Of a stretch of 64,000 bases of DNA, positions 4,728 through 28,466 are shown one piece after another. The first letter of the stretch is position 1; each line of letters opens with the position of its first letter. The notes beneath the pieces were generated by a model. The model was not told the origin of the DNA, made no database searches, and saw only the letters and a list, made by a program, of their open reading frames with translations. The translations under genes were made by a program, and so were the position numbers. This DNA comes from Desulfurococcaceae archaeon (GTDB lineage: Archaea > Thermoproteota > Thermoprotei_A > Sulfolobales > Desulfurococcaceae). The stretch lies in contig JAGDWI010000001.1 in NCBI GenBank assembly GCA_023269825.1, positions 244,492-308,491 of the forward strand, given 5' to 3'.

Positions 4728-4987
4728 CAACAAATTTAATTATTGTTACTGATTATACAAGCTCATTCTTAGTGTTTCATATTGGTTTAATTCTGGATTA
4801 CTCTCTGTAGTGGATTCAAAGCAGTGAATAAACATCCTATTAGTAAATATAGTGGGCAAAGCTTGTAGAATAAATGTATTGTTTAGCACAGAGAAACTAG
4901 TATTACTGGGTATTATGGTTTTTCAGAGTTTCAGAGTCGAGTAATTGTTGGTCAGCTTCCAAATGATATATTGATGTTTTATGGTTG

Positions 4988-5563
4988 ATGACCTTGTCGA
5001 TTGAGGAGAAAGATATAAATGAAGTCAAAAAGGTTATTATTGATCTCGGTAGAAGCCTTGACGAAGTTAGAAGAGAGACCAGTGCTCTCTCAGAGAAAAT
5101 CGATAAACTAGCTAAGTCTGTTGCTGAATTATCTAGAGAAGTGGGGAAACTAAGTGATACTTATGGATTCATAGTTGAAGACATTGCTCGTAGTTTTCTA
5201 CCATCATGGTTCTACTTGAACATGGATTTAACCGTGAACGAGTTTAACAGAGCCTTTCTCAACACAGGGGATAAAGTTCTTGAACTGGATTTATACGGGG
5301 AGGGATGCGATAAAACAGGTAATCAAGTAATTTTAATTGGCGAAGCAAAAGCTAGAATACACGGTGAAGATGTAAGAGTTTTCCACGAGAAAGTAAACAA
5401 GTTCATAAACAAAGAGAACTCACGCTACGTTATATTCATGTTCGGATTATACATTCATCCAACTGCAATGCAGGAAGCACTCAACCGAGGGGTAATACTC
5501 ATATCACCATATGCTACAATAACGAGAACTCCGACAAACCAAATAATACAGAACACATCATAA
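4988..5563 (+). CDS. Coiled-coil PD-(D/E)XK nuclease-like protein (DUF3782-type)
   Basis: Residues 1-55 form a coiled coil (DEVRRETSALSEKIDKLA onward). The rest resembles the archaeal DUF3782/PD-(D/E)XK group. An acidic residue in a strand (ELDLYGEG) is followed by VILIGEAKARI, which fits the D...ExK active-site pattern. The HEKVNKFINKE segment and IFMFGLYIHPTAMQEALNRGVILI match the closing helix and strand of the fold. Related proteins occur in many copies in hyperthermophile genomes, but their substrates are not known. TTG 4985 also starts this frame, but ATG 4988 is the simpler start. It stands alone in the accessory stretch, immediately upstream of the structured RNA region. Confidence 0.7.
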   Translation: MTLSIEEKDINEVKKVIIDLGRSLDEVRRETSALSEKIDKLAKSVAELSREVGKLSDTYGFIVEDIARSFLPSWFYLNMDLTVNEFNRAFLNTGDKVLELDLYGEGCDKTGNQVILIGEAKARIHGEDVRVFHEKVNKFINKENSRYVIFMFGLYIHPTAMQEALNRGVILISPYATITRTPTNQIIQNTS

Positions 5564-5671
5564 TACGTTCACAATAATGAAAAATGCATTACTTGAACAA
5601 TAGTTATACAAAAATATGAACCACAAACATACAAAAAACAAAGAAGAACACAATAATACAAAACCTAATCC

Positions 5672-5678
5672 TTAAATA
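5672..5678 (+). promoter_or_regulatory. TATA box of the BHB hairpin RNA
   Basis: CCTTAAATAAG contains TTAAATA at 5672-5678. Its centre is about 26 nt upstream of G5701, which is the first base of the basal stem of the hairpin RNA. That is the spacing expected for an archaeal promoter. Confidence 0.5.
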
Positions 5679-5700
5679 AGAACAAACAGAATTATACATT

Positions 5701-5876
5701 GGCTCGGCCCAACCCGGTATTGTGGTATAGTATAATTACACTCATATGGTCACGGGTCCGGGGGCACGGGTCTACCCGCCACGGGATAACCGGGCGGGGA
5801 AGATTCCGGGTACTCCGGGTTCGTGAGCCGTATGAGTGTAATTATACTATACCACAATACCGGGGGTAAGCGAGTT
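5701..5876 (+). ncRNA. Rod-like GC-rich hairpin RNA with a basal bulge-helix-bulge motif
   Basis: A 34-bp perfect inverted repeat (5713-5746 with 5831-5864) encloses an 84-nt core of roughly 70% G+C in an otherwise AT-rich gap. The core keeps pairing: 5748-5754 with 5822-5829 (one bulged G), 5755-5763 with 5813-5821, and an apical hairpin CCCGCC/GGCGGG (5775-5780 with 5793-5798) with loop GATAA. At the base, CTCG/CGAG (5703-5706 with 5871-5874), a 4-bp helix GCCC/GGGU (5707-5710 with 5864-5867) and 3-nt bulges AAC (5711-5713) and AAG (5868-5870) reproduce the canonical BHB geometry recognised by archaeal splicing endonuclease. A TATA box lies 26 bp upstream and T-tracts follow at 5905-5926. 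No coding frame spans it. It may be excised and circularised. A MITE-like element is the main alternative. Confidence 0.6.
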
Positions 5877-5904
5877 CCTTGCTTTATAACTCTTAAATAA
5901 TACT

Positions 5905-28354: not shown

Positions 28355-28392
28355 TTTGCCTTAACCTACTTCTCGTATAATATTAAGGAATG

Positions 28393-28466
28393 CGGGCCCG
28401 CCGGGATTTGAACCCGGGACCTACGGGTTAAGAGCCCGCCGCTCTACCAGGCTGAGCTACGGGCCC
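28393..28466 (-). tRNA. tRNA-Lys (anticodon CTT)
   Basis: A 74-nt cloverleaf: acceptor GGGCCCG/CGGGCCC, D arm GCTC/GAGC, anticodon stem GCGGG/CCCGT with loop CTCTTAA, T arm CCGGG-TTCAAAT-CCCGG, and discriminator G. There is no intron and the terminal CCA is not fully encoded. A GATATATAAGC promoter element (about 28493-28503) lies 27 bp upstream of the 5' end. Confidence 0.97.

Follow-up and report, generated by a model that had tools for sequence, protein, structure and literature searches.

The window, a stretch of 64,000 nucleotides, belongs to the 1.5-Mb genome of a heat-loving Desulfurococcaceae archaeon (G000). At the locus described here, a gene for a nuclease-like protein is followed, on the same strand, by a partly palindromic intergenic block, a TATA-like box and a long inverted repeat with a bulge-helix-bulge (BHB) motif at its base (Table 1). 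The sequence-only reading had recognized this repeat as a rod-like, GC-rich hairpin RNA, and its description stands. The two arms (5713–5746 and 5831–5864) are exact reverse complements that form a perfect 34-bp inverted repeat, they enclose a core of 84 nt (5747–5830) with 70% G+C, and the whole folds as a single rod of approximately 78 bp, with flanks of only 24–29% G+C. The minimum free energy (MFE) of this fold is −123.8 kcal/mol, as compared to −65.5 ± 4.3 kcal/mol for dinucleotide shuffles (z = −13.5). Among all uninterrupted stems of Watson-Crick and G·U pairs with a span of up to 320 nt, the 38-bp stem of the rod is the longest in the whole 1.5-Mb genome, the runner-up being 26 bp long. 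We note that this second stem (G000:C2:867501-867717, equivalent to L192:701-917) resembles two facing tRNA genes with a common T-arm, GGTTCAAATCCCGG, and is ordinary. Scattered copies, a check named in the earlier reading, were not found, the rod being single-copy in its own genome.

Table 1. Features of the rod RNA locus (positions in the window).
Feature	Position	Strand	Remark
Linked protein gene, coiled coil and PD-(D/E)XK nuclease-like domain	4985–5563	+	nine orthologs
Conserved intergenic block, partly palindromic	5566–5616	.	conserved across six loci of one genus
TATA-like box CTTAAATA of the RNA gene	5671–5678	+	spacing kept in homologs
Outer (clamp) helix, 5′ strand	5701–5706	+	pairs with 5871–5876; CTCG = 5703–5706; predicted transcript start near first base
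BHB central helix, 5′ strand, GCCC	5707–5710	+	pairs with 5864–5867
BHB 5′ bulge, AAC	5711–5713	+	3-nt bulge kept in 8/9; predicted cut 5712/5713
Rod RNA of 157 nt, predicted to be excised and circular	5713–5869	+	length 153–164 nt in nine genomes; covariation
Inner helix, CCGG / CCGG	5714–5717 / 5860–5863	+	sequence read
Apex, CGG-GATAA-CCG	5782–5792	+	CGG/CCG clamp in 9/9 homologs
BHB central helix, 3′ strand, GGGT	5864–5867	+	pairs with 5707–5710
BHB 3′ bulge, AAG	5868–5870	+	predicted cut 5869/5870
Outer helix, 3′ strand, then T-rich sequence	5871–5876	+	CGAG = 5871–5874

The rod RNA occurs in nine genomes, namely the window genome and eight others of the family, which fall into two genera: six share a genus (G000, G007, G002, G005, G004 and G006) and three belong to another (G033, G025 and G112). 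DNA search yielded one homolog, at the same place in G007. A covariance search of related genomes, as proposed in the sequence-only reading, was more productive: model R1, built from the G000/G007 pair, found G002 and G005. The loci downstream of matches to the upstream protein gave rods in G004 and G006 and, with R1, also in G033, G025 and G112. A second model, R2, was built solely from the three RNAs of the other genus; it detects the first genus at E values of 1e-17 to 1e-22, with G007 below threshold, and over the whole tiled genome of the window it returns the window locus alone (E = 2e-19). In whole-genome covariance searches, the first look overlooks diverged rods (R2 misses the window locus there), so that these searches do not prove the RNA to be confined to the nine genomes, and it may occur elsewhere.

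At the base of the rod, the canonical BHB order that had been read from the window is present letter for letter, as CTCG-GCCC-(AAC)-CCGG on one side and CCGG-GGGT-(AAG)-CGAG on the other. Cuts in such motifs usually fall after the second nucleotide of the bulge. The pairing is retained in relatives, another check named in the earlier reading: a script given only the BHB rule identified the canonical order in 8/9 homologs but never its reverse; shuffled flanks produce a canonical BHB by chance in 0.4–2% of cases per sequence. The outer helix is present in 9/9 homologs with differing sequences, GGGG[A/G]TAA is kept on the 3′ side of all nine, and in the other genus the consensus fold yields the BHB motif de novo, without prompting. 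The BHB fold coincides with the MFE structure in G112 and lies 0.4 kcal/mol above it in G000 and G007. In G004 and G006, which carry the canonical letters, the gap between the BHB fold and the MFE widens to 4.9 kcal/mol, and it reaches 8.4 kcal/mol in G002, whose central helix contains one G·A mismatch.

What is conserved among the nine RNAs is the structure, the circle length, the TATA spacing, the apical clamp and the BHB, and not the letters of the stem. Indeed, the identity of the rod core between clades is close to the shuffled level in most comparisons, while the predicted circle measures 158 ± 4 nt over all nine genomes. The apical loops that sit on the clamp read GAUAA, GUGAA, GCGAA, GACA, GAAA, AAAA or GCCA. 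Turnover of the stem sequence is almost complete, with approximately 28 pairs changed on both sides yet still paired (13 pairs between G000 and G007, and 14–15 in the other genus). Within the stem, a MAFFT alignment of all nine RNAs cannot be relied on, and the counts of covariation were therefore restricted to comparisons inside each clade. Between G000 and G007, 21/21 variable pairs are still standard, as compared to 5–7 of 27–33 when partners are slid by 1–3 columns; the corresponding values for the other genus are 30/37 and 8–13 of 38–45. Over both clades together, 51 of the 58 variable pairs are standard, as compared to a per-clade range of 5–13 of 27–45 after sliding. The rod is not a product of chance, and its RNA structure is under selection.

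A palindrome could also be maintained at the DNA level, as a hairpin or cruciform used in replication or recombination or as the target of the linked nuclease, with template switching keeping the arms complementary. The long, near-perfect arms in G000 and G007, the patchy distribution and the predicted DNase-type fold of the linked protein would fit such an element. The strand of the variation speaks against it. When the arms are aligned in a strand-neutral manner, G·U and A·C combinations stand at 96:27, where base composition predicts a ratio of 1.2–2.2; the rows of this count are related by descent, so that a binomial p-value overstates the case. This excess points to selection on the plus-strand RNA and not on a DNA palindrome. 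The rods of the other genus are rich in G·U, the BHB is strand-specific, and a TATA box is present. We thus regard a DNA-level element as very improbable.

The TATA box that had been placed approximately 26 bp upstream of the RNA proved to be present in the form of the TATA-like CTTAAATA, whose first base lies 30 nt before G5701. In 8/9 homologs such a box is found 30–32 nt ahead of the outer helix, and in the ninth at 36 nt, as far as the helix could be delimited. This fixed spacing suggests that transcription should start at the foot of the rod, which would make the rod RNA a gene of its own. Further upstream, the block at 5566–5616 holds an inverted repeat, TAATACATT...AATGTATTA, which is perfect in G007; it is possible that it acts as an operator, perhaps a shared one, or as a second promoter. 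In the other genus, the promoter of the RNA carries a sequence similar to this repeat, GTATTATATGCAAAATAGTTATA.

Conservation of the BHB at the base of the rod suggests that the cell probably excises the rod and seals it into a circle. Joining the predicted ends would give the junction CCGGG-GGUAA-CCCGG in G000 and G007, GGG-GUAA-CCC in G005, GGG-GAUAA-CCC in G002, G004 and G006, and CUGG-GGAUAAA-CCAG in the other genus. Ligation is thus predicted to recreate a GRUAA-type loop that resembles the apex, and this is the strongest hint of ligation that the sequences offer. The conservation of GGGG[A/G]UAA on the 3′ side, which is otherwise unexplained, makes sense if these nucleotides cap a closed dumbbell. 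The genome of the window encodes two EndA-type proteins (splicing-endonuclease family) and one RtcB; the two EndA-type genes are consistent with a two-subunit, permissive splicing endonuclease. A precedent is known from Thermoproteus tenax: its permuted SRP RNA, whose leader and trailer form a BHB and whose TATA box lies 26 nt upstream of the start, is circularised and is cut by EndA in vitro (PMC4731332). This RNA demonstrates that a stand-alone gene with such a motif can give rise, by this route, to circles that are stable and functional (PMC4731332).

Alternatively, no circle may accumulate, and the rod could act in linear form, as a structured RNA or as the 3′ UTR of the mRNA for the nuclease, by stabilising or regulating that message; its BHB-like base would then be an internal loop to which a protein binds, or a site at which EndA destroys the transcript. 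The position of the rod, 110–190 nt downstream of the nuclease-like gene and on the same strand in 9/9 genomes, is in line with this idea, as is the difference between the MFE fold and the BHB fold in G002, G004 and G006. The constant distance of the TATA-like box, the canonical order of the BHB and its absence in reversed form argue against it, and the junction caps are explained only by ligation. On balance, we consider the linear alternative unlikely.

The association of the RNA with the upstream nuclease-like gene had escaped the sequence-only reading and is the strongest clue. In an AlphaFold model (pLDDT 80.5), the linked protein consists of an N-terminal coiled coil, with a helix of approximately 76 residues, followed by a PD-(D/E)XK-like domain. 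Residues E65, D102, E120 and K122 are conserved in the nine orthologs; D102, E120 and K122 are invariant and lie on predicted strands of the model, as in the D...(E)xK core of PD-(D/E)XK enzymes. Foldseek retrieved EndoMS/NucS and MspJI with a probability of 1.00 and TMq values of just 0.33–0.42. On the basis of the motif and of this low-TM-score fold match, the protein is a putative nuclease. The Pfam families DUF3782 and PDDEXK_10 remain below their gathering cut-offs (best scores of 21.3 of 24.4 and 17.0 of 21.2 bits), and Pfam, NCBIfam, PHROGs and PADLOC provided no confident name. The protein is comparable to the archaeal DUF3782 / PDDEXK_10 (COG5493-like) proteins, which also combine a coiled coil with PD-(D/E)XK; no RNA partner of these was found described in the literature searched.

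The pair of gene and RNA occupies four neighbourhoods that are unrelated to one another ({G000, G007}, {G002, G005}, {G004, G006} and {G033, G025, G112}), and no further gene is common to all four. A tie to the downstream amidohydrolase was rejected, since this gene is common to G000 and G007 only. In the other genus (G033, L097:377-6816, minus strand), the unit lies directly before a cluster of Metallophos (Mre11-like), HerA-like (DUF87) and Rad50-like genes, which was seen in none of the other three neighbourhoods. Members of the linked-protein family were found in 59 of the 398 genomes sampled across the phylum, and coiled-coil PD-(D/E)XK proteins are multi-copy in some of them (e.g. G394, G354 and G517). 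A scan of the loci of these relatives outside the nine genomes gave no detectable rod nearby, indicating that proteins of this family can function in its absence. To some extent, the linkage could reflect mere proximity without joint function, although we consider a joint function likely; roles of the RNA as antidote, cofactor or structural scaffold would all be compatible with it.

Occurrence in four different neighbourhoods would also be expected of a mobile archaeal BHB intron travelling with a free-standing PD-(D/E)XK homing nuclease, and in the close relatives G001, G003 and G014, where the RNA search was weak, neither gene nor rod was detected. Against this reading, the rod is flanked by neither a host gene nor exons, transcription appears from the TATA spacing to start at the rod itself, the rod is single-copy, and searches for viral or plasmid proteins related to the linked one found none. 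An imperfect 14-nt direct repeat does flank the rod (5666–5679, TAATCCTTAAATAA; 5887–5900, TAACTCTTAAATAA), its first copy including the TATA box. The second copy has no counterpart in G007, and the repeat is therefore not taken as a target-site duplication, none being conserved between G000 and G007. We regard a mobile intron as very improbable. A MITE or other non-autonomous transposon was rejected in view of the single copy and of the missing counterpart of the second repeat copy in G007, and the immediate neighbours, which are unrelated housekeeping or unknown genes and not of the TnpB family, do not correspond to those of an IS200/IS605 omega-RNA.

Comparison with known RNAs gave partial likenesses. 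No Rfam match was obtained at the rod, and a relaxed threshold gives weak, chance-like matches on hairpins only. The gene shares with that of the T. tenax SRP RNA its stand-alone nature, upstream TATA box, leader-trailer BHB and predicted EndA cleavage and RtcB ligation (PMC4731332), and the predicted junction loop can be likened to the functional terminal loop that ligation restores in that RNA. In contrast, the rod measures approximately 157 nt versus approximately 300 nt, is unbranched and is linked to a nuclease-like gene. It does not match RF01857, and a true SRP RNA is encoded elsewhere in the genome (C3:222921-223197), so that this identity was rejected. Circularised archaeal tRNA and rRNA introns show a similar canonical BHB, 37/38-like, with a 7-nt exon loop and an excised insert that circularises; here, however, there are no tRNA or rRNA exons, the flanks consist of the clamp helix only and the structure of the insert is conserved. 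A tRNA intron or split tRNA was discarded as well: the sole tRNA of the window is a tRNA-Lys at 28392–28466, and a 5′ tRNA half could not be accommodated given the position of the TATA box. A nuclease-motif protein next to a structured RNA is reminiscent of type III toxin-antitoxin systems (ToxIN), in which a tandem-repeat RNA lies upstream of a ToxN/AbiQ-type endoribonuclease. The layout here differs, since the RNA forms a single long rod and not pseudoknot repeats, lies after the gene under its own promoter, and is paired with a protein of PD-(D/E)XK-like fold. Lastly, viroid-like and Obelisk circular RNAs share the closed rod shape predicted here, but the rod is chromosomal with a promoter, has no Rfam ribozyme match and bears no sign of RNA replication.

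Taken together, the best explanation, to which we assign a probability of about 0.65, is a stand-alone RNA gene whose product is an EndA/RtcB-circularised rod that forms a two-component module with the upstream nuclease-like protein. The structured RNA, its conservation, its strand and its linkage to the gene are observed; from these we infer the remaining steps. A TATA promoter belonging to the RNA gene would drive plus-strand transcription from the foot of the rod, and the canonical BHB would arise by pairing of leader and trailer. Both bulges would then be cut by the tRNA splicing endonuclease, which is probably of the two-subunit type, and RtcB ligase would seal the insert into a closed double-stranded rod of approximately 157 nt, its junction recreating a cap similar to the apex. 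In the likeliest form of the module, the rod would bind the nuclease-like protein and control or scaffold it. Our confidence decreases from own-promoter transcription through EndA cutting, ligation and protein binding to control or scaffolding.

More tentatively, one may envisage a hitherto undescribed two-component archaeal system in which a PD-(D/E)XK coiled-coil nuclease is controlled, armed or scaffolded by a dedicated circular dsRNA rod made by tRNA splicing, both moving between loci as a unit. With a rod fixed at approximately 158 nt and 78 bp and with similar end loops, this system might be a defence, addiction or genome-maintenance module; we give this reading as a whole somewhat less than even odds.

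The rod RNA and its partnership with a nuclease appear to be new, while the biogenesis resembles that of the circular SRP RNA of Thermoproteus. If the proposed processing is true, this would be a cellular RNA, conserved in shape and length, that is circularised for its own sake and not as the by-product of an intron, and a closed dsRNA rod would be a product of the tRNA-splicing machinery. The prediction is a sharp one, consisting of one junction and one binding partner in nine species, and the rod ties an RNA to a nuclease-like protein family that, as far as we could find, has no known function.
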